This document shows, in pieces, positions 28,304-39,230 of a stretch of DNA of 39,230 bases. Each line of letters starts with the position of its first letter. Position 1 is the stretch's first letter. The stretch covers positions 1-39,230 of IMG/VR virus record IMGVR_UViG_3300035199_001168. One strand, written 5' to 3'. The translations under genes were made by a program, and so were the position numbers. Under the pieces are notes generated by a model, which searched no databases, was not told where the DNA came from, and saw only the letters and a program-made list of their open reading frames with translations. The DNA comes from a virus.

Positions 28304-28825
28304 TCACGATTTCTCGCCCTTGAACAGCTCGACACCTCGCGCCCGGTGGGCCGCCTTCGCCTGGCGAACAGCAGCCGCCCGCACCTTCGCACCCTCCCGG
28401 GCAGACTCCCGGCGCCGGCCACGCAGGCGTTCCTGCCTGGCCAGCAGCTCCGCCTGCACCAGGTGATGCAAACGATCCAGGTGGCGGAAGTACGCCCGGC
28501 GAGCCGCATCGCCCTTGCCCAGCTCAAGCACATCGCACTGCTGTTCCAGGGTCAGATCGTTGAGATACCGCGCGCCCGCCAGCCGGTGCAGCACCGCGCC
28601 CTCCTTCGTCGCCAGCAGCGTCGACAGCGCCGCCGTCACCTCGCCGGCCAAGTAGTCCGGTCCGGCGCCGGCCAGCAGCACCTTGTCGCCATACACCCCG
28701 CCCCGGGGCGCGCAGCCGCCGTACTCCATGATGGTGCTCAGGGTGCTGCCCAGGCCTCCGGCCGAGCCGTTGCTGGCGATCTGTTCGGCCCAGTGCCGAA
28801 ACACCCCCTCAATGACCTCGATCAT
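28304..28825 (-). CDS. Putative late antiterminator, Q-like
   Basis: A 173-residue protein. The ATG at 28825 removes a spurious 22-residue extension (GVCWVGGFCVG) that only reads through the repeat region. The pattern WAEQIASNGSAGG ... YGGCAPRGG ... followed by a helical, arginine-rich C terminus (AYFRHLDRLHHLVQAELLAR) resembles phage antitermination Q proteins. The location is the strongest support: end of the early replication operon, directly before the late region, with a tR'-like terminator after it. It should let RNA polymerase read through the terminators of the late operon. Confidence 0.5.
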   Translation of the reverse strand: MIEVIEGVFRHWAEQIASNGSAGGLGSTLSTIMEYGGCAPRGGVYGDKVLLAGAGPDYLAGEVTAALSTLLATKEGAVLHRLAGARYLNDLTLEQQCDVLELGKGDAARRAYFRHLDRLHHLVQAELLARQERLRGRRRESAREGAKVRAAAVRQAKAAHRARGVELFKGEKS

Positions 28826-29165
28826 GCGCGCTCTCCCCGGCCAGAAACCCAACCCAACACAAAAACCCCCAACCCAACACACACCCAACACAGAAAAACT
28901 CCAACAAAAACAAAGTACTGAAACTCTCTGTGTAAGGTGTGTTGGGTTGGTAAGGTTTTTTCAGCCCTCGCGTAAGGAAAAAACGTCGCCTTGCCCGCCA
29001 AGGCATTGCACATAAATATTCGTGCGTACACGTGCGCGCGTGCGTAAACCCAACACACCCTACACACACCTCCATAACCCGCGCCGTTAGCGGCCTCCAG
29101 CTGTGTAAGGTTGCCGAAACCAACCCAACACACAGGCAACACACCCAACACACTATTGGACGTAC
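28826..29165. repeat. Repeat-rich noncoding region, candidate replication origin (iterons)
   Basis: 340 bp without a credible gene. The 9-mer CCCAACACA occurs at 28853, 28873, 28884, 29049, 29124 and 29144, with a variant GGCAACACA at 29135 and one inverted copy at 28938-28946. The 11-mer CTGTGTAAGGT is repeated at 28928-28938 and 29101-29111. The centre holds an AT-rich patch (CATAAATATTCG, about 29011) next to an alternating purine-pyrimidine run (GTGCGTACACGTGCGCGC, 29022-29039). Clustered iterons, an AT-rich segment and position beside a primase-helicase gene suggest an origin; a transcription-related role is also possible. Confidence 0.55.
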
Positions 29166-31940: not shown

Positions 31941-32140
31941 GCAGTGGCCTCCCGAATCGCCTGGCAATGCACGCAGGCCTGACACCCCGGTACCGCCACA
32001 CGGCGCGCCTCGGGAATGTCATCACCGCATGACTCGCACTCCAGTGCGCTCACACCCACATAGCGCACACGCGCATCAATAGCGCGCTGCCGCTCCGCTT
32101 CGGCGGCCTGCTCGGCCATCTCCAGATAGCGCTCATCCAT
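31937..32140 (-). CDS. DksA/TraR-type zinc-finger protein
   Basis: A 67-residue protein. Residues 1 to 28 form a charged coiled helix (MDERYLEMAEQAAEAERQ), and residues 35 to 62 carry a four-cysteine finger (CESC ... CQACVHC), as in the short phage DksA/TraR proteins. Such proteins bind the RNA polymerase secondary channel and modulate promoters. The ATG at 32140 has GGAGGG 8 bases upstream. It overlaps the CII-like gene by 8 bases and the primase gene by 4, so all three are translationally coupled. Confidence 0.8.
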   Translation of the reverse strand: MDERYLEMAEQAAEAERQRAIDARVRYVGVSALECESCGDDIPEARRVAVPGCQACVHCQAIREATA

Positions 32141-32621
32141 CGCAGCGGCCCTCCATGGCGGCCCGCGCACCGGCCATGATGCCCAGCACCGCGCGGATCA
32201 CCTGGTTGCCGTGGTGCTCGAGGAGCGCCACCTCGTGCGGCTTCCACTCATTGTCGGCAGCACCGGCGTGCAGGCTGCCCACGAACTCGCCTTCCTTCTG
32301 CAGCAGCTCGCCCACCGCCTTCAGCGCATCCTTGGTCGCCTTCACAGGCTCCGGGCGATACCAAACGGCGCCCGCCGGGCGGGTCACCGCATCCAGCAAG
32401 CGCGAATCGCGCGTGGCGGCGAGGATCTCTTCCAGCTCATCCGGGGTCGGCCAACGGCGTTCCTCGTCGAGCTTGAGCTTCTTCTGCAGGGTATCGAGGT
32501 CCATGACCAGGTCATGGGCAAGGGCAGTGATCCCGCCCTTGTAGTCGCGCCCGGCGCGGTACAGCGCCTGGCGGATAGAAAGCACCGGACCTGCGTCCGG
32601 CAAAAGGTCAGTGCGGCTCAT
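32133..32621 (-). CDS. Phage CII-like regulatory protein (CP76 family)
   Basis: A 162-residue protein. Residues 10 to 60 contain a HTH-like segment (SIRQALYRAGRDYKGGITAL followed by DTLQKKLKLDEERRWPTPDE), typical of the CP76/CII family of phage regulators. The C-terminal part is helical (KDALKAVGELLQKEGEFVGS). The family regulates lysis-lysogeny promoters. The ATG at 32621 is preceded by a small hairpin (32624-32642) containing AAGGAG, and by the first copy of the duplicated leader with two conserved-loop hairpins. Confidence 0.75.
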   Translation of the reverse strand: MSRTDLLPDAGPVLSIRQALYRAGRDYKGGITALAHDLVMDLDTLQKKLKLDEERRWPTPDELEEILAATRDSRLLDAVTRPAGAVWYRPEPVKATKDALKAVGELLQKEGEFVGSLHAGAADNEWKPHEVALLEHHGNQVIRAVLGIMAGARAAMEGRCDG

Positions 32622-32623
32622 AA

Positions 32624-32780
32624 CCGAAGGACTCCTTCCCGGTCTAGCCATCACGCAAGGTGGCACCCTACGCTATGACCACGACCGCTGATGTGCTGTG
32701 TCGTCATTAGCCCGCCAAGGAGGTCAGAGACCTTGGCAGGCTCCCCCAGTCGCTGCGGGCGGTCAGAAACCCGCAGCGAC
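32624..32780 (-). promoter_or_regulatory. Structured leader 1 of the CII-like gene (paired conserved-loop hairpins)
   Basis: In the leftward RNA the order is hairpin A (32749-32780, 11-bp stem, loop TTTCTGACCG), hairpin B (32714-32737, 7-bp stem, loop TCTCTGACCT), the 13-mer ACGACACAGCACA (32692-32704), and a hairpin over the ribosome binding site (32624-32642) that ends 2 bases before the ATG. The whole block is homologous to the leader at 33226-33383. Neither hairpin has a U tract, so they are not terminators. Confidence 0.6.
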
Positions 32781-32817
32781 CATGTTCTAACTACCGTTGC
32801 TATGAGAAGGACAACTC

Positions 32818-33021
32818 ATGACTCAAAGGACCCCCACCCTAATTACGGTTGGCATGCTCAAGCAGATGCTTGAAATTTACCCGGATGACTACGAACTGGA
32901 CTTCAGTGGGCTGGAGTTCTACCGCCTCAAGCAGCGAGGTCCAGAGCTCCTCCAAGTGGAATTCAACGAGCTGGTTTATCGCGACGGAACAGGTCGCGTG
33001 GTGGTTGAGAACCTCGAATGA
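32818..33021 (+). CDS. Small acidic protein on the opposite strand, function unknown
   Basis: A 67-residue protein that reads like a real small phage protein: MLKQMLEIYPDDYELDFSGL is a plausible helix-strand unit, followed by EFYRLKQRGPELLQVEFNEL and a charged C terminus. AGAAGGA lies 8 bases before the ATG. It is the only rightward gene inside the leftward early region. Its last 59 bases overlap the end of the leftward gene at 32963, so both cannot be strongly transcribed at once without interference. Confidence 0.65.
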   Translation: MTQRTPTLITVGMLKQMLEIYPDDYELDFSGLEFYRLKQRGPELLQVEFNELVYRDGTGRVVVENLE

Positions 33022-33223
33022 GGTGACCAGCGGCAGCCAATGCCATATCGACGCACGCAGGCGCGTAGCTCTCAACCGCCTGCCCATCCTGGCGCACCTC
33101 GAGCACCAACCGCTTGCCGTTGAGCCAGCGGATGGTGACTTCGAGGCCAGCCAGCTCGGCAGAGGGAGCCTCCTCGGCTGTAGGCAAAATGGGCTCACGC
33201 TTTACCATGGCTTTCCTCGTCAT
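32963..33223 (-). CDS. Small early protein of unknown function
   Basis: A protein of 86 residues from ATG 33223, or 81 from ATG 33208. The downstream ATG has the better ribosome binding site (GAGG 6 bases before it). The upstream ATG is reported because its context, hairpin-TT-ATG, is the same as for the CII-like gene. A central beta segment (LEVTIRWLNGKRLVLEVRQDG) and a helical C-terminal part are visible, with no known motif. It is preceded by the second copy of the duplicated leader and lies just after the Cro-like gene. Confidence 0.6.
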   Translation of the reverse strand: MTRKAMVKREPILPTAEEAPSAELAGLEVTIRWLNGKRLVLEVRQDGQAVESYAPACVDMALAAAGHLIRGSQPPRDLFRRDKPAR

Positions 33224-33225
33224 AA

Positions 33226-33383
33226 CCGTAAAAGCTCCCTTTACGGTGTAGCCATCTAGCCGGGCTCGCCCTACTCTATGACTACGACCGATGCATGTGC
33301 TGTGTCGTCGTACGCCGAAGCAAGGAGGTCAGAGACCTTGCCAGGCACCCCGCCGGCGCGGGAGGTCAGAGTCCCGCGCCGGC
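33226..33383 (-). promoter_or_regulatory. Structured leader 2 (paired conserved-loop hairpins)
   Basis: In the leftward RNA the order is hairpin A (33352-33383, 11-bp GC stem, loop ACTCTGACCT), hairpin B (33320-33341, 6-bp stem, loop TCTCTGACCT), ACGACACAGCACA (33296-33308), and a hairpin CCGTAAA-GGGAGCT-TTTACGG (33226-33246) whose loop holds the ribosome binding site. Compared with leader 1, stems A share almost no sequence yet both pair perfectly, and the loops stay the same. Confidence 0.6.
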
Positions 33384-33421
33384 ACCTTACCGACCCGCTC
33401 AAAGTAGGCCGACTTCAGGAT

Positions 33422-33613
33422 TCACTTCGGCGCGTCCTTCTGCGCCACACGCTCAAGGTAGAGCTGCTCGATCCTCTTCCCAATCTCGTACTTCAAATCC
33501 GCCCCACCCATGGCTCGGCAGATCGTCGGCTGGCTAACGCCAGTCAACTCGCCGATCTGGTGCTGGGACAAGCCCGCATCACAGAGGGCCTTGAGCATTT
33601 CAGGAATGGTCAT
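33422..33613 (-). CDS. Cro-like helix-turn-helix regulator
   Basis: A 63-residue protein with one HTH (LCDAGLSQHQIGELTGVSQP, then TICRAMGG). It is divergent from the CI-type repressor and first in the leftward early operon, the position of lambda cro. AAGGG lies 6 bases before the ATG. The leftward promoter and operator O1 lie immediately upstream. It probably represses the repressor gene and tunes early transcription. Confidence 0.8.
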   Translation of the reverse strand: MTIPEMLKALCDAGLSQHQIGELTGVSQPTICRAMGGADLKYEIGKRIEQLYLERVAQKDAPK

Positions 33614-33626
33614 GGAAGACCCTTTT

Positions 33627-33644
33627 CAATTCACAAATGAATTG
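33627..33644. promoter_or_regulatory. Operator O1
   Basis: The 18-bp palindrome CAATTCACAAATGAATTG covers the expected start point of the leftward promoter. An almost identical 18-mer lies at the other end of the repressor gene (34388-34405). Repressor or Cro binding is inferred. Confidence 0.75.
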
Positions 33645-33650
33645 CCACTG

Positions 33651-33679
33651 ATGATACGCATATGAGTAGGCCCGGACAA
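33651..33679 (-). promoter_or_regulatory. Leftward early promoter (PR-like)
   Basis: On the minus strand the -35 element is TTGTCC (33674-33679) and the -10 element is TATCAT (33651-33656), with a 17-bp spacer. It fires toward the Cro-like gene. Operator O1 begins 6 bp downstream of the -10. Confidence 0.6.
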
Positions 33680-33692
33680 TACAATCCTGAAT

Positions 33693-33708
33693 TATTCATT
33701 TGAGAATA
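33693..33708. promoter_or_regulatory. Operator-like site O2 near the repressor start
   Basis: TATTCA-TTTG-AGAATA has the same half-site spacing as O1 and lies 15 bp before the repressor ATG. It is next to a possible repressor promoter -10 TACAAT (33680-33685) that has no clear -35. Autoregulation by the repressor is plausible. Confidence 0.45.
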
Positions 33709-33722
33709 CGGAGCCACCGCGC

Positions 33723-34397
33723 ATGGCAATCTCAGGGCAGCTTATCGGCCGCCTGCTTGCAGACAAGCTCAAGGAATTGGCTTGGTCAGAGGGAGAACTG
33801 GCCCGCAGGTCCGGTGTCCCCCAACCCACTACTCACCGCATCTTAGCCGGCGAGTCGGACAGCCCTCGAATAGATAACATCACCAAGTTAGCCAAGGCGC
33901 TGGGCTTGGACGCTGCCGCTCTTCTGGCAGGCAAGCTCCGCGCCGAGCTCGACAACAATGTGATTGCAGGGCCCGACATTAAGGGTCGAGTACCTCGGAT
34001 TTCTTGGGTGCAGGCAGGCACCCTAAGTGAGGCGATTGATTTGTTTGAACCAGGCTACGCCGAGGAATGGCTGGACTGCCCGTTTCCTCACAGCAAAGGT
34101 GCCTTTTGCCTCGAAGTACGCGGCATGAGCATGTTTCCCGACTACCGTCCAGGCGAATTGATCTTGGTCGAACCTCGCGTTGAGCCCATGCATGACGACG
34201 ACATTGTCGCTAGGACTCCGGACGGCCAAGCCACATTCAAGCGCCTACAGGTAACAGAGGAAGGAACATACCTCCTCGCCGTGAATCCTGAATTCCCGAG
34301 CAGAATCATCCACGTCCCTGAAGGGACCGAGATCTGCGGCGTAGTCACGGGCTCCTGGATGAACAGGAGAAGGCGCTCCCTCCAAAGCAATTCATAA
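33723..34397 (+). CDS. CI-type prophage repressor with S24 autoprotease domain
   Basis: A 224-residue protein. Residues 10 to 65 form a HTH DNA-binding domain (ELARRSGVPQPTTHRILAGE). Residues about 95 to 215 form a LexA/CI-like S24 domain: predicted cleavage at Ala98-Gly99 (SWVQAGTL), catalytic Ser136 in RGMSM and Lys173 in TFKRL. This architecture gives RecA-triggered self-cleavage and prophage induction. Its coding sequence is less GC-rich than the structural genes. Operators flank it on both sides, and O3 covers its stop codon. Confidence 0.92.
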   Translation: MAISGQLIGRLLADKLKELAWSEGELARRSGVPQPTTHRILAGESDSPRIDNITKLAKALGLDAAALLAGKLRAELDNNVIAGPDIKGRVPRISWVQAGTLSEAIDLFEPGYAEEWLDCPFPHSKGAFCLEVRGMSMFPDYRPGELILVEPRVEPMHDDDIVARTPDGQATFKRLQVTEEGTYLLAVNPEFPSRIIHVPEGTEICGVVTGSWMNRRRRSLQSNS

Positions 34398-34405
34398 ATG
34401 AATTG
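34388..34405. promoter_or_regulatory. Operator O3, overlapping the repressor stop codon
   Basis: CAATTCATAAATGAATTG differs from O1 by a single base in the centre. It covers the repressor stop (34395-34397) and the first bases of the rightward promoter -35. A weaker half-site TATTCA lies 10 bp further on inside the promoter spacer. Confidence 0.75.
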
Positions 34406-34432
34406 ACTGCAATCTATTCATGATCGTATTGT
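34403..34432 (+). promoter_or_regulatory. Rightward early promoter (PL-like)
   Basis: The -35 element is TTGACT (34403-34408), the spacer is 18 bp and the -10 element is TATTGT (34427-34432). It overlaps O3, so repressor binding should silence the rightward operon. Confidence 0.65.
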
Positions 34433-34433
34433 T

Positions 34434-34472
34434 CGTCGCGTACCCACTCTCTGACCTCTGGAGTACGCGACG
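34434..34472 (+). promoter_or_regulatory. Conserved-loop hairpin in the rightward early leader
   Basis: CGTCGCGTAC (34434-34443) pairs perfectly with 34463-34472, and an inner CCA/TGG pair leaves the loop CTCTCTGACCTC. The loop contains exactly the TCTCTGACCT found in leaders 1 and 2. The 3' arm contains the GGAG ribosome binding site and ends at the base before the ATG at 34473. The 13-mer ACGACACAGCACA follows at 34479-34491. The RNA starts only a few bases upstream, so this is its first structure. Confidence 0.6.
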
Positions 34473-34658
34473 ATGCAAACGACACAGCACACCCCCAGCA
34501 AATGCCAGGTGCACCTGCACCCATCCGCCAACAACCCCTTCCTTGTATTTGAAGTACGACGCCTGGCGCGTAATGCCGGCTGCCAGTACGTAACCCGCGA
34601 GCAGTCCCGCGCCGCTCGTACCGCCTCCAACGGCCCGTTCGGAGGTGACGCAGCATGA
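34473..34658 (+). CDS. Small leader-operon protein, function unknown
   Basis: A 61-residue basic protein (MQTTQHTPSKCQVHLHPSAN ... EVRRLARNAGCQYVTREQSR). No known motif. Its ribosome binding site lies in the hairpin that precedes it, and its stop overlaps the next start by 4 bases, so translation of the kinase gene is likely coupled to it. As first gene of the rightward operon it holds the position of lambda N, but it shows no clear arginine-rich N-type motif beyond RRLAR. Confidence 0.6.
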   Translation: MQTTQHTPSKCQVHLHPSANNPFLVFEVRRLARNAGCQYVTREQSRAARTASNGPFGGDAA

Positions 34659-35233
34659 ATCAGATCCTCATCGGCCTGCATGGCCTCGCCCGCACCGGCA
34701 AAGACACTGCCGCCAACTACCTGGCCGCGCACTTCGACCTGATCGCCTACGCCTTCGCCTACCCGCTCAAGGTCGCGCTGATGCAGATGTTCAACCTGTC
34801 TTCCGCGCACCTGAATGGCGAGCTGAAGGAGGCGCCGCTGCTCGGCATCGGCAAATCCCCTCGCGAACTGATGCAACTGCTCGGCACCGAGTGGGGCCGG
34901 CAGATGGTCCACCCCGAGCTCTGGCTGCTGCTGGCCCGCCAGCACCTGGACAACATGATCGAGCTCCGGGACGGGCACGCGCCCGGCTTTGTGATCAGCG
35001 ACGTTCGCTACGAGAACGAGGCGCAGTGGGTCCGTGACCTGGGCGGCGTGGTGGTGCACATCCAGCGCCCGGACGCCCAAGCGGTGGCCTCGCATTCCAG
35101 CGAGAGCGGCGTAGCGGTGCACGACAACGACTTCGTCATCCACAACGACGAAGACCTGGCGCACCTCTATAAGCAACTGGATCGGCTGATGGGCCTGCTC
35201 ATCCGCCGCCAGGCCATGCGCAACGCTGCGTGA
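34655..35233 (+). CDS. Deoxynucleoside monophosphate kinase
   Basis: A 192-residue P-loop kinase of the T4 gene 1 (DNK) type. Walker A GLARTGKDTAA is at residues 10-20. The family block LLGTEWGRQMVHPELWLLLAR is split near residue 76, and FVISDVRYENEAQWVRDLGG carries the LID-proximal region. It phosphorylates dNMPs to dNDPs and feeds phage DNA synthesis, possibly including modified bases. The start overlaps the upstream stop as ATGA. Confidence 0.88.
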   Translation: MNQILIGLHGLARTGKDTAANYLAAHFDLIAYAFAYPLKVALMQMFNLSSAHLNGELKEAPLLGIGKSPRELMQLLGTEWGRQMVHPELWLLLARQHLDNMIELRDGHAPGFVISDVRYENEAQWVRDLGGVVVHIQRPDAQAVASHSSESGVAVHDNDFVIHNDEDLAHLYKQLDRLMGLLIRRQAMRNAA

Positions 35234-35241
35234 GGCCCGCC

Positions 35242-35526
35242 ATGAACAGGACGATTCGTGAGGCCGCCCAGGTGCTGGGAGTGCGCGAGAGCTTGCTGCG
35301 CGAGCACCTGCGCGCCACCAACTCCCTGAACAAGGACGGCACCCTGGCAGCAAAGCATGTCGGCGGCGGGAACCTGTTCATGGACCCACGCTCGCGCTGG
35401 AACCCCAAGCTGCAGAAGCACACCCACTACGCCGTGCTGATGGTCACCGAGTCGGGCATTTCCTGGCTGGCCAAGCGGCTGGGCGTGACCGTCACCGTGA
35501 CTAAAACCAAGGAAGACGCGGCATGA
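35242..35526 (+). CDS. Stand-alone KilAC-like (antirepressor C-terminal) domain protein
   Basis: A 94-residue protein: TIREAAQVLGVRESLLREHL is a HTH-like start, followed by KDGTLAAKHV and the conserved C-terminal block VLMVTESGISWLAKRLG. This is the KilAC pattern normally found as the C-terminal half of antirepressors behind an AntA/BRO or Rha domain, missing here. The ATG at 35242 has GAGG 6 bases upstream; the GTG at 35230 lacks a ribosome binding site. Probably a DNA-binding regulator. Confidence 0.7.
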   Translation: MNRTIREAAQVLGVRESLLREHLRATNSLNKDGTLAAKHVGGGNLFMDPRSRWNPKLQKHTHYAVLMVTESGISWLAKRLGVTVTVTKTKEDAA

Positions 35527-35891
35527 AGCCCACCAATCCCATCACCGATGCCATCGGCGTGGTCAAGCTCGCCGACATGCACTTCCGCAACCCCACCGCC
35601 GTGGACGCCGCGACTGTGCGCGACGCCTCCGCCGAGTGCATCCAGCGCCTGGAGGCCATCCGCCCCGAGGCCCTGCACCTGGTGGCGCTGTACACGGCCC
35701 TCCTGTCCGTCACCCCTCTCGGCTGGCTGCCCCACGTCACCCTCACCAACGACCCGCTGCGCCCCTTCGGCGCAGTGATCACCGACGAGGCCGGCAACAT
35801 CGCTGCCCGCGACGTCGGCAAGTCGGTGGAGGGGTTGGTCAGCCTGCTGCGGGCTCGGCTTCCGGCGGGGTGCGGGGAGGTGGCGGCATGA
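35523..35891 (+). CDS. Conserved early protein, function unknown
   Basis: A 122-residue protein with mixed helix and strand pattern (VKLADMHFRNPTAVDAATVR, ALHLVALYTALLSVT, LRPFGAVITDEAGNIAARDV). No known motif. It overlaps its neighbours by 4 bases on both sides and is co-transcribed with the KilAC-like and PrtN-like genes. Confidence 0.65.
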   Translation: MKPTNPITDAIGVVKLADMHFRNPTAVDAATVRDASAECIQRLEAIRPEALHLVALYTALLSVTPLGWLPHVTLTNDPLRPFGAVITDEAGNIAARDVGKSVEGLVSLLRARLPAGCGEVAA

Positions 35892-36127
35892 GCAACACCC
35901 ACACCCAGCTGATGCAGCAGTGGAAAACCAACAGCCTGACCCTGACCGAGGTACGCGAGCACTACTTCACGCACCTCAAGACGGACAAGCGCCTGCGGGC
36001 ACTGATCAAAAGCGGCGAGATCAAGCTGCGCATCTTCAAGCTCACCGAGTCCCGCCTGGAGCGCCCCCGGGTGCGCCTGACGGACCTTGCCGAGTTCCTG
36101 GACACCCACGCCAAACCGGCAGCATGA
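35888..36127 (+). CDS. PrtN-like (pyocin activator family) regulator
   Basis: A 79-residue protein. LMQQWKTNSLTLTEVREHYF followed by LIKSGEIKLRIFKL and VRLTDLAEFLDTH matches the PrtN pyocin activator pattern: two-helix start, a YF pair, a short strand pair and a closing VxLxDLAxxxD helix. In Pseudomonas aeruginosa PrtN activates pyocin genes after DNA damage; phage versions are presumed transcription factors. The ATG overlaps the preceding stop by 4 bases. Confidence 0.65.
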   Translation: MSNTHTQLMQQWKTNSLTLTEVREHYFTHLKTDKRLRALIKSGEIKLRIFKLTESRLERPRVRLTDLAEFLDTHAKPAA

Positions 36128-36133
36128 CCCGGC

Positions 36134-36161
36134 GCCCGGCCGTACCGGGCAACTCTCTGAC
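36134..36161 (+). promoter_or_regulatory. Hairpin plus CTCTGAC motif before the next gene
   Basis: GCCCGG-CCGTA-CCGGGC (36134-36150) is followed after a few bases by CTCTGAC (36155-36161), and GCACAGCACATG leads into the next gene. Here the motif is beside rather than in the loop, so relation to the leader hairpins is tentative. Confidence 0.35.
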
Positions 36162-36186
36162 GATCCACGACCATGAGGCACAGCAC

Positions 36187-36534
36187 ATGAGCAAGAAAGC
36201 ACGACCCTTCATCGACACCCTGCGCGAGATCGAGGCAGGCGGCCTGCTGGACGAACTGAGCGAAGTCCAGCACTCGCTGGTCGACGCCATCCGCCTGACC
36301 GGCAAGGGCGGCGAGTTGACCATCAAGCTCGCCTACAAACCGGACGGCTCCGGTCAGATGACCATCAAGGCTGACGTGAAGGCCAAAGAGCCTCTGCTGT
36401 CGCGCGGCACATCGCTGTTCTTCCTCACTCCCGAGGGCAACCTCACCCGCCGCGACCCACGTCAGCAGGAAATCAACCTGCGCTCGGTCGATGACGACAC
36501 CGGCGCCGCCCCGCTTCGCCAGGTCGCGGAATAA
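36187..36534 (+). CDS. Small phage protein, function unknown
   Basis: A 115-residue protein. A helical N terminus (FIDTLREIEAGGLLDELSEV) is followed by beta strands (GELTIKLAYKPDGSGQMTIK), and the C-terminal segment is short and charged. It resembles small phage early proteins found next to DUF2303 genes, but carries no motif that gives a function. The preceding 60-bp gap contains a hairpin and a CTCTGAC motif; a ribosome binding site is weak (GAGG about 10 bases before the ATG). Confidence 0.65.
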   Translation: MSKKARPFIDTLREIEAGGLLDELSEVQHSLVDAIRLTGKGGELTIKLAYKPDGSGQMTIKADVKAKEPLLSRGTSLFFLTPEGNLTRRDPRQQEINLRSVDDDTGAAPLRQVAE

Positions 36535-36569
36535 CCCCTCTCTGACACCGCTCACAAGGAGCACTACAC

Positions 36570-37385
36570 ATGCAAGAAGCCATCAACCAGCTGGTCACCC
36601 TGTCCCAGGCCCTGGGCAAGCCCTTCAATCATGAGGACGTGCCCGCACCGCTGGCCCTGGTCCCGCACGGCGTTTCGCTGGAGAACCTGGAAAAATACCT
36701 GGACTTCCCGACCCGCACCCGCCAGCACCTGAAGGCTCTGGATGCGGCCAGCTTCATCGCCTATGTCACTCGCTTCGCCAACGAGGCCACCTCGGTGTTC
36801 TGCAACGGCCCTGACGGCCGCACTTTCCGCGCCGTGATCGACTATCACCAGCCGGGTCTGCCGGCCTGGGGCGATCATGCAGTTACCTACTGCTGCCCAC
36901 TCACCGTTGAGTGGGGCCGCTGGAAGGAGTTTGACCGCAAGCGCATGCCCCAGGCCGAGTTCGCCGAGTTCATCGAGGACAACGTCAAGGACATCGTGGA
37001 CAACGGCCCGGGCACCCCGAACGCCGCCGACATGCTGGAGATCAGCCGCACCCTGGAGGCGAAGAAGAACATCAACTTCCGCCAAGGCATCCGCCTCGAC
37101 AACGGCCAGGTCCAGCTCACCTACAACGAGCAGATCGACGGACGGGCCGGCGAGACCGGGCAACTCAACATCCCAGAGCAATTCTTCATAGGCATCAAGC
37201 CCTTCCTCGGCGGCGATGCCTTCCTGATCGCCGCCCGCTTCCGCTACCGCATCACCGAGGGCCGCCTGCAGATGTGGTACGAGCTCGTCCGCCCGGACAA
37301 GGTCCTGGAAGAGGCCTACGCCGCCGTACGCCAGCAGATCGCGGAAGGCATCGGTGAAGTGCCGCTCTACGAAGCAGCCATCTAA
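36570..37385 (+). CDS. DUF2303 family phage protein
   Basis: A 271-residue protein with the DUF2303 layout: VPHGVSLENLEKYLDFPTRT near residue 32, FIAYVTRFANEATSVFCNG around 62, then GRTFRAVIDYHQ and a C-terminal beta block (RFRYRITEGRLQMWYELVRP). The family is widespread in phages of gammaproteobacteria near recombination or replication genes, with no confirmed function. AAGGAG lies 9 bases before the ATG, and CTCTGAC occurs at 36540-36546 just upstream. Confidence 0.8.
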   Translation: MQEAINQLVTLSQALGKPFNHEDVPAPLALVPHGVSLENLEKYLDFPTRTRQHLKALDAASFIAYVTRFANEATSVFCNGPDGRTFRAVIDYHQPGLPAWGDHAVTYCCPLTVEWGRWKEFDRKRMPQAEFAEFIEDNVKDIVDNGPGTPNAADMLEISRTLEAKKNINFRQGIRLDNGQVQLTYNEQIDGRAGETGQLNIPEQFFIGIKPFLGGDAFLIAARFRYRITEGRLQMWYELVRPDKVLEEAYAAVRQQIAEGIGEVPLYEAAI

Positions 37386-37398
37386 CGGAACCGTTCAA

Positions 37399-37438
37399 GC
37401 CCCGCCACCGGACTCTGACGCTATTCCCGGCGGCGGGC
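37399..37438 (+). promoter_or_regulatory. Conserved-loop hairpin in the intergenic leader of the P-loop gene
   Basis: GCCCCGCCACCGG (37399-37411) pairs with CCGGCGGCGGGC (37427-37438), with one bulge and one mismatch. The 15-nt loop starts ACTCTGACG, close to the loop of leader 2 hairpin A. AGGGAG and GACACAGCACATG follow into the next gene. Confidence 0.45.
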
Positions 37439-37459
37439 ACCTACAGGGAGACACAGCAC

Positions 37460-38218
37460 ATGCAGCCAACCACCACCATCCAGCTGCTCGCCGCCGCGCT
37501 GTTCATCAGCCTGTGCGTCTGGCCGCTCATCGCCACCCGCATGGCCCGCAGCGCCCGCTCCGCCGGCTTCGACGAGGGCCACCAGATCGCCCGCGAAGCC
37601 AACGCCGAGCGCATCCACCTGCTCAACATCGACCTCGCCGACCTGGCCCGCAAGCGCGAAGCCGACAGGACCGCCCACCGCCTGGAGCGCGACCAACTCA
37701 TTCAGGACGCAGACCAGCGCATCGCCGCCTACGCCCGCCGCGCCAATCCCTTCACAGAACAGGACCTGTCCGCATTGGCCGGCACCTTGAAGACCCTGGA
37801 GCTGGCCCGCAACACCTTTGCCGGCCTCCAGGCCTTGGACAAGCAGGCCGAAGCCGCCAACCAGTTGGCCAGCACCCGCGATCTGCACGCCCGCCTGCAG
37901 GAAGTGCTGTCGAACCAGAACGCCGAGCAGCCCGCTACCCCGCGCCGACCGATCAAGGGCGCTCCGGCAGCCGTGAGAAGCCTTCTGGTGTACGGCCCAC
38001 AGGGCTGCGGCAAGACCCGCAACGCCCGCGCTATCGCGGATGCCCTGGGCCTGACTGACATCCTCGACGACTGGCACATCGGCATGCCATTCCCGACATT
38101 CAACGTACTGGTGCTGACCTACGAGAACGGCCCATTCACGGGCATCACCCGTCACACCCTCAGCTACAAGAGAGCCATGCAACTGGTCGAAGCCAAGCGC
38201 ACAGAGGTGGCAGCATGA
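37460..38218 (+). CDS. Membrane-anchored coiled-coil protein with C-terminal P-loop
   Basis: A 252-residue protein. Residues 6 to 26 form one membrane helix (TIQLLAAALFISLCVWPLIA). Residues 35 to 160 are charged coiled coil. Residues about 172 to 195 carry a clear Walker A (LLVYGPQGCGKTRNARAIAD). Only about 70 residues follow, so a full AAA ATPase is not present; a Walker B acidic pair could be in DILDDWHIG. Function unknown. The stop overlaps the exonuclease start by 4 bases. Confidence 0.7.
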   Translation: MQPTTTIQLLAAALFISLCVWPLIATRMARSARSAGFDEGHQIAREANAERIHLLNIDLADLARKREADRTAHRLERDQLIQDADQRIAAYARRANPFTEQDLSALAGTLKTLELARNTFAGLQALDKQAEAANQLASTRDLHARLQEVLSNQNAEQPATPRRPIKGAPAAVRSLLVYGPQGCGKTRNARAIADALGLTDILDDWHIGMPFPTFNVLVLTYENGPFTGITRHTLSYKRAMQLVEAKRTEVAA

Positions 38219-38805
38219 GCCTGATCCACGCCCATCACTTCGTCGTCGATCTGGAGACGGAATCCACCGCCCCGAACGCCGGCATCACCGCCATCGGCAT
38301 CGTCTACCTGCATGTGCCGGCGGGCCCGCTGTCGGCCCCAGTGCTGTTCGAGTTCTACACCCGCACCGATCACGGCGGTACCGGCCATGTCGACCCAGGC
38401 ACCCTCGCCTGGTGGGAACAGCAGAGCCCCGAAGCCCGCGCCGAAGTCGACGGCAGCCTGCCGCGCACCGCGCTCGGCGATGCACTGGCCCAGGTCGAGC
38501 AGTTCATGGCCTCGCTGGTGCCGCGCAAGGGGGACCGACTGGTCTGGGGCAATGGCAGCAGCTTCGACAACGTCATTCTGCGCGAAGCCTTCAGTACGCA
38601 CGAACTGAAGGCCCCTTGGGAGTTCCGGAACGACCGCGACCTGCGCACCCTGCTGGCCATCTTCCCCGGTGCCAAGGGCGCTGCCTTCGAGGGCATCAAG
38701 CACCATGCCCTGCACGACGCGAGGCATGAGGCCAAGGCCCTGCTCGCCGGATTGACGGCACTGAACCGCCTTGAGGCCGCCGCTGAAGAGGAGACCACCG
38801 CATGA
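38215..38805 (+). CDS. DEDD-family 3'-5' exonuclease
   Basis: A 196-residue protein of the RNase T/DnaQ superfamily, nearest in pattern to the Rv2179c-like phage exonucleases. Exo I is HHFVVDLETEST (Asp12, Glu14). Exo II is the GNGSSFDNVILREAF block. Exo III is HHALHDARHEA with the acidic residue and histidine. It degrades DNA or RNA from the 3' end and probably serves phage replication or recombination. It is coupled to the genes before and after it by 4-base overlaps. Confidence 0.85.
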   Translation: MSLIHAHHFVVDLETESTAPNAGITAIGIVYLHVPAGPLSAPVLFEFYTRTDHGGTGHVDPGTLAWWEQQSPEARAEVDGSLPRTALGDALAQVEQFMASLVPRKGDRLVWGNGSSFDNVILREAFSTHELKAPWEFRNDRDLRTLLAIFPGAKGAAFEGIKHHALHDARHEAKALLAGLTALNRLEAAAEEETTA

Positions 38806-39230
38806 GCTGGATTCTCACCAACAGCGGCAAGGTCTTCGACCTGCTGATGCCCACCGGCGAAATGATCGAGCCGACTGATCTGGCCCACGCCCTGGCTCAC
38901 ACCTGCCGCTTCAACGGCCACGTGAAGCACCACTACAGCGTGGCGCAGCACAGCCTGCTGGTCTGCGACCTGGTGGAGACGCCCGAGCTGAAGCTGCAGG
39001 CCCTGCTCCACGATGCCCCGGAGGCCTACATCGGCGACATGGTGCGGCCGCTCAAGGCGCTGATGCCGGAGTACCAGTACGTCGATCGGCGCATCTGGCT
39101 GGCCGTCACCGAGCGCTTCGGCCTCCCGGAGGCGCTGGCAACCGAGGTGAAGCACGCCGACCTGGTGGCGCTGGCCACCGAGAAGCGCGACCTGATGCCC
39201 GCCCACCCGGTGGACTGGCCCTGCCTGCAA
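38802..39230 (+). CDS. HD-domain phosphohydrolase, truncated by window end
   Basis: 143 residues are visible and the gene continues past the right edge. The HD superfamily pattern is clear: FNGHVKHHYSVAQHSLLVC contributes the first histidines, ALLHDAPEAYIGDMVRP carries the HD pair, and KHADLVALATEKRDL holds the distal aspartate. It resembles YfbR-type 5'-deoxyribonucleotidases that cleave dNMPs. It would work on the same pool as the dNMP kinase upstream. The ATG overlaps the exonuclease stop by 4 bases. Confidence 0.85.
   Translation, partial: MSWILTNSGKVFDLLMPTGEMIEPTDLAHALAHTCRFNGHVKHHYSVAQHSLLVCDLVETPELKLQALLHDAPEAYIGDMVRPLKALMPEYQYVDRRIWLAVTERFGLPEALATEVKHADLVALATEKRDLMPAHPVDWPCLQ

Follow-up and report, generated by a model that had tools for sequence, protein, structure and literature searches.

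Hairpins and partner motifs on both early transcripts

What do hairpins with nearly the same loop do on both divergent early transcripts of a temperate phage? Such a set lies in the window, by which we mean the entire 39,230-bp virus record analyzed here, whose gene order is that of a lambda-like temperate phage (Table 1). The leftward early operon runs from a Cro-like gene through the hairpins to genes for a CII-like CP76 regulator, a DksA-like protein, a primase and a protein at the place of lambda Q. The rightward early operon encodes, in order, LHP (61 aa), a nucleotide kinase, a KilAC-like protein, p122, a PrtN-like protein, p115, a DUF2303 protein and p252. Judging from the P_L-like promoter sequence, the rightward transcript would start at ~34438–34440, within the 5′ arm of its hairpin. 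This hairpin adjoins the LHP start codon (ATG at 34473) and contains the GGAG Shine–Dalgarno sequence of LHP. The near-identical palindromes CAATTCACAAATGAATTG and CAATTCATAAATGAATTG, at 33627–33644 and 34388–34405, overlap both divergent early promoters and are likely CI/Cro operators.

Table 1 Early-region features of the window, in order of position
Feature	Position	Strand	Remarks
Q-position protein	28304–28891	−	phrog_4300; last early gene; candidate factor
CII-like CP76 regulator	32133–32621	−	directly 3′ of the leaders; candidate factor
Leader 1 partner motif	32693–32701	−	ACACAGCAC; followed by ATC, no start codon
Leader 1 inner hairpin	32711–32740	−	loop TCTCTGACCT
Leader 1 outer hairpin	32749–32780	−	11-bp stem; loop TTTCTGACCG
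86-aa ORF	32963–33223	−	between leaders 1 and 2; no family match
Leader 2 partner motif	33297–33305	−	ACACAGCAC
Leader 2 inner hairpin	33320–33341	−	loop TCTCTGACCT
Leader 2 outer hairpin	33352–33383	−	12-bp stem; loop CTCTGACC
Cro-like HTH gene	33422–33613	−	first on leftward transcript
P_R-like promoter	33651–33679	−	TTGTCC-17-TATCAT; consensus match only
CI-like S24 repressor	33723–34397	+	between both divergent early operons
P_L-like early promoter	34403–34432	+	TTGACT-18-TATTGT; consensus scan; same order in relatives
Rightward 5′-terminal hairpin	34434–34472	+	stem 34434–34443/34463–34472 plus CCA/TGG; loop with CTCTCTGACCTC; orthologues in relatives
LHP	34473–34658	+	61 aa; opens rightward operon; phrog_13491/35204
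LHP partner motif	34482–34490	+	ACACAGCAC; codons 4–6; codon-level constraint
p122	35523–35891	+	phrog_8889; universal; candidate factor
Unpaired class motif CTCTGAC	36155–36161	+	5′ of ACAGCAC (36180–36186) and p115 start (36187)
Unpaired class motif CTCTGAC	36540–36546	+	5′ of DUF2303 gene (start 36570)
Operon hairpin	37399–37438	+	loop ACTCTGACGCTATTC; orthologues with matched loops in other phages
Operon partner motif	37451–37459	+	ACACAGCAC; directly 5′ of ATG at 37460

The TCTGACC copies lay where a first-pass annotation of this DNA had placed them, and all five hairpins described there folded, with minimum free energies of −75.8 for leader 1 (z −4.7), −70.6 for leader 2 (z −2.9) and −28.7 for the rightward hairpin (z −4.5). 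The word occurs 8 times in the window, not an unusual count given an expectation of 5.05 ± 2.12; its unusual feature is its hairpin context, not its frequency. The five loops had been called nearly the same, which needs one qualification, the leader 1 outer loop (TTTCTGACC) being one base off CTCTGACC. A sixth hairpin, at 37399–37438, had been taken for a loose relative; it is in fact the orthologue of a well-conserved hairpin whose loops elsewhere match the class of their phage (see below). New to the present analysis are the two unpaired sites in the rightward operon, the partner motif ACACAGCAC, and the class-specific base that the loops and unpaired sites share.

A family with conserved pairing

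The hairpins belong to a large family that occupies the same places in ~40 related phages. One early transcript begins with such a hairpin and has others ahead of its later genes; the divergent transcript carries its copies in the cro–cII interval. The sites share a core, CU-n-AC, which lies within a hairpin loop of 7–19 nt but is sometimes unpaired. It is mostly followed by ACACAGCAC, which begins ~6–15 nt 3′ of the stem, or of the core where this is unpaired. In the 42 phages formed by the window and its relatives, 69% of the unique CTCTnAC sites located 5′ of ACAGCAC had stems of 7 bp or more, compared with 4.6% (maximum 9%) after shuffling of the flanks and 11% at other CTCTnAC sites. The aeruginosa-type relatives were found by pattern scans and then fetched, and the patterns contain part of the element; many of the contigs are metagenomic fragments.

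An RNA function had been proposed on the ground of stem pairing, and homologous leaders that kept the sequence but lost the pairing would have spoken against it. Instead, the pairing is retained: for 16 leaders of different phages, standard pairs were present in 93.3% of the cells, whereas sliding the partners by 1–3 columns left 40–49%. Changes on both sides occurred in 12 cells, compared with 5.6 ± 1.7 in shuffles. The leader 1 and leader 2 outer stems of the window, GCCGGCGCGGG and GTCGCTGCGGG, had been thought to share little sequence. They differ at only 3 of 11 positions, but compensatory change, the other half of that claim, stands, as all three differences are compensated on the other arm. 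An RNA-level function of the hairpins is therefore well supported.

Two further features lie close to the leftward leaders. A conserved GGTCATAGAGTAGGG-like stretch, at 33256–33296 (−) in the window and present in 34 viral contigs, follows just 3′ of the leader ACACAGCAC, and in many phages forms a minigene of 4–6 codons (MHRS). A 67-aa ORF (phrog_21180; 32818–33021, +) runs antisense between both leftward leaders.

The first-pass annotation knew of no described element with this loop, and our searches agree. Rfam covariance models gave no match up to E = 1 in positions 32000–39230, and a literature search, thin on subscription papers, found no publication describing the element. CsrA/Rsm targets carry GGA in the loop of the transcribed strand, a feature that these loops, reading CUCUGACC, lack. 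By its sequence and parts, the element is thus without a known relative that we could find; by its probable action, it is probably kin to a known kind.

The partner motif is constrained as nucleic acid

Whereas the loop varies between phages, ACACAGCAC is invariant across them. Where it lies within the LHP coding sequence, its conservation could be compared with codon usage. Threonine in LHP codons 2–7 is encoded by ACA in 57 of 107 and 37 of 37 cases in two lineages, but in only 9 of 292 and 10 of 225 cases in the rest of the gene in the same lineages, and the motif is read in different LHP frames in the two. ACACAGC is constrained as nucleic acid. ACACAGCAC is located inside LHP, just ahead of the ATG in genes of the p115 and p252 types, and in leaders that have no conserved start codon; because its placement relative to starts varies, it is not simply start-codon context. 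The leader of phage pAN (L188, 4560–4900, −) carries two copies; beyond the second lies a possible early terminator, a stretch that resembles a hairpin and includes a U-rich run.

The block of LHP, KilAC-like, p122, PrtN-like, YfdP-like, YfdQ/DUF2303 and p252 genes is syntenic in aeruginosa- and stutzeri-type temperate phages (L187 (PG1), L188 (pAN) and L205–L269). At the LHP place of phage Turba (L010, 7536–7841; record OR683412.1), the annotated product is a D-alanyl-D-alanine carboxypeptidase, a name that looks doubtful because the LHP-family proteins here have no such domain. An AlphaFold model of LHP (mean pLDDT 64.8) was too poor for use.

One loop base agrees within a phage and differs between phages

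At nearly all sites of a given phage, the core has the same base n, which differs between phages. The window and its 41 relatives were assigned to classes by this base, the class of some phages resting on 2–3 sites: 17 phages, the window among them, had G, another 17 had C, 4 had an A-type (CCUCUAC), and 4 were mixed or odd. In 36 aeruginosa-type phages with 191 sites, within-phage agreement of n was 0.907, compared with 0.473 (maximum 0.577) after permutation. The bias of the pattern scans favors presence of the element and not agreement of n, because n was left free in the patterns. Related phages are not independent observations, yet the class changes are scattered over the gene trees, with at least seven switches on trees of genes found in all phages. 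U at n was absent from the aeruginosa-type sites (0 of 193), compared with 43 of 259 other CTCTnAC words. The unpaired cores follow the same rule, as the relatives of those at 36155 and 36540 carry the same class base as the hairpins of their phages.

An independent set, collected by searching for the KilAC-like protein and not for the motif, comprised 78 loci, many only ~50% identical. Among 49 P. stutzeri-type and related contigs (including PG1 and pAN), 29 were C, 20 were U and none was mixed, their loops reading CUCACCA or CUUACCA in the leader as well as in the P_L and operon hairpins. In PG1 and pAN, ~69 nt around the P_L hairpin are identical apart from the class base. Across both sets combined, n takes all four bases. 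Two C-class phages (L127, 6522–6559; L179, 14462–14499) have an extra leader pair with CUCUAACC loops, and hence a second class in one genome; this pair was perhaps acquired by recombination.

P. aeruginosa is the recorded host both of the A-class phage LPPA56 and of the C-class phages Turba, Lodos, Meadow and Presto. As both classes occur in this one host species, the class cannot be set by a host factor alone. The agreement of n inside each phage, against constant flanks, leads us to infer a trans-acting phage factor.

Candidate readers of the loop

Near-identical neighbors of different class provide natural experiments, as a protein that is identical across classes cannot be the reader. LHP, favored first as an N-like factor by its place, is ruled out by this comparison, being identical in phages with C and U loops (L220 and L229). 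The KilAC-like and PrtN-like proteins are likewise identical between classes, and p252 is near-identical between the A and C classes. The DksA-like protein is very probably out as well (identical between A and C, one change between C and U). The proteins that do differ in cross-class pairs are the CII-like regulator (5 or more differences in every pair), p122 (3 or more), the Q-like protein (11 or more, in the aeruginosa-type set) and CI (13 or more). By sequence comparison, these four remain as candidate readers.

None of the four has a perfect class-linked residue common to both sets, and no gene family is confined to the G or C class or cleanly tracks class. The Q-like protein appeared class-linked in the window (AUC 0.99), but the match was not clean across phages; its C-terminal tail is very basic, and it is possibly a late antiterminator or activator. 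Gene trees of the aeruginosa set likewise revealed no family with clearly few class switches, an apparent winner having disappeared on a common taxon set. The reader may lie outside the compared genes.

Processive antitermination as the favored action

In phage lambda, nut sites combine a phage-specific hairpin loop with a shared linear motif; one is found where the P_L transcript begins, the other between cro and cII. The first-pass annotation had drawn a conceptual parallel with lambda nut and HK022 put sites, which gains strength from the geometry and from the pairing of a phage-specific loop with an invariant motif; the class pattern speaks against the protein-free action of put. Processive antitermination of the nut kind, involving a reader from the phage and a partner from the host, is the action that we favor, at a probability of roughly 0.45, because the sites share the logic and layout of nut and their distances resemble those of HK022 putL and putR. 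The P_L-like transcript opens with one site, and the divergent one has a tandem pair in the cro–cII interval, ~270–320 nt from the P_R-like start, the promoters being placed by consensus only; the HK022 putR site lies ~270 nt from its promoter, and the stem-loops of put stand near both early promoters at distances very similar to those seen here (PMC9378689).

Both divergent early transcripts carry the element, a bipartite RNA site. Its first part is the phage-specific CU-n-AC, a presumed recognition motif, in a hairpin loop or unpaired, and its second the invariant ACACAGCAC ~6–15 nt past the stem or unpaired motif. In the proposed mechanism, a phage-encoded factor would read the loop base n, a host component common to all these phages would read ACACAGCAC, and RNA polymerase on the early operons would become termination-resistant, as with lambda nut. 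More tentatively, the single loop base (G, C, A-type or U) could serve as a self-identity code at ~3–9 sites per genome, read by a phage protein unrelated to N alongside the host component that reads ACACAGCAC.

Like lambda nut (boxA and boxB, with N), the element is bipartite, joins a phage-specific loop to a shared linear motif, and occurs in early operons at nutL- and nutR-like places. It differs in its loop, which is CU-n-AC and not a GNRA-like pentaloop, and in its partner, which is ACACAGCAC downstream, no boxA of the CGCUCUUACACA type having been found beside the hairpin. The loop core itself resembles a boxA of the form CUCU-u-AC, but u occurs at none of the 193 aeruginosa-type sites. 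There are, moreover, many extra sites, some of them unpaired, and we identified no N-like protein. With a loop unlike boxB, a partner other than boxA and no known N-like reader, the element is not claimed as a member of the nut family. Antitermination has been described in Pseudomonas prophage-like systems of the AlpA and Q type (PMC7969949, PMC9371919), but these antiterminators load at promoter DNA elements, whereas the elements here are RNA hairpins.

Several observations weigh against antitermination. Within a single operon the sites stand in front of several genes, an arrangement that per-gene control would explain at least as well as one-time antitermination; the LHP Shine–Dalgarno sequence lies within its hairpin; no strong intrinsic terminator was found just 3′ of the leaders; no gene family tracks class cleanly; and neither the partner motif nor the loop is of the boxA or boxB type. 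The first two keep translational control alive. A phage RNA-binding protein might read CU-n-AC near early ribosome-binding sites and repress or activate translation like T4 RegA, regulating itself through the 5′ hairpin of the first operon. Copies of the motif do precede LHP, p115, DUF2303 and p252, including unpaired ones near Shine–Dalgarno sequences. Such a post-transcriptional regulon is nevertheless less likely than antitermination: the relation to the start codon varies from inside the LHP ORF to just 5′ of the ATG (p115, p252) to none in leader 1 (ACATC), the constant feature is the spacing from loop to ACACAGCAC, and leaders carry 2–5 tandem hairpins well 5′ of cII.

As in the T4 RegB and RegA systems, a short motif is repeated between genes of early messages, and it might mark a site that a phage endoribonuclease cuts or that is protected from cutting. 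The sites are intergenic in early operons, unpaired or looped, and distributed like those of RegB, but RegB cuts another motif, GGAG/U (PMC3014915). The present sites also differ from those of T4 in their strong hairpins, invariant second motif and divergent nut-like layout. Strong stems and an invariant ACACAGCAC would be unnecessary for cutting, and no nuclease gene was seen to track class, so that mRNA processing is improbable.

Direct action of the RNA on RNA polymerase, which the first-pass annotation had listed among its options, would make the element a protein-free antiterminator like HK022 put. The leftward leader has the put layout of two tandem stem-loops (~70–75 nt, compared with ~70 nt in put) at a putR-like place, and a hairpin stands at the putL-like place, but the rightward site is a single hairpin, and unpaired copies exist. 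The phage-specific classes, which imply a trans-acting factor, and the repeated operon sites set the element further apart from put. This action is disfavored, and to us very improbable, because phages of one host species have different loop bases, each consistent within its own phage, a pattern that a fixed polymerase surface does not explain. Hardly probable at all is a phage antisense RNA, of the kind known from P4/P1 c4-type immunity, that pairs with all loops. A single base change in such an RNA could match all targets and so produce concerted classes, but neither the word nor its complement occurs outside the sense early-operon sites in KT1 (40.0 of 40.6 kb), the G044 fragment or the G007 record, so that no RNA with a perfect 7-nt seed is encoded there.

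To our knowledge, detailed accounts of phage-specific RNA recognition on early transcripts come mainly from lambdoid phages. The family described here provides dozens of naturally occurring variants, with a single base that differs at all the sites of a genome and flanks that stay constant. Such variants amount to a specificity experiment already set up, in which comparing or swapping them could reveal the reader. Identifying it would show how early expression is controlled in Pseudomonas-type temperate phages, for which we found no RNA-based description, and could yield orthogonal RNA–protein pairs.
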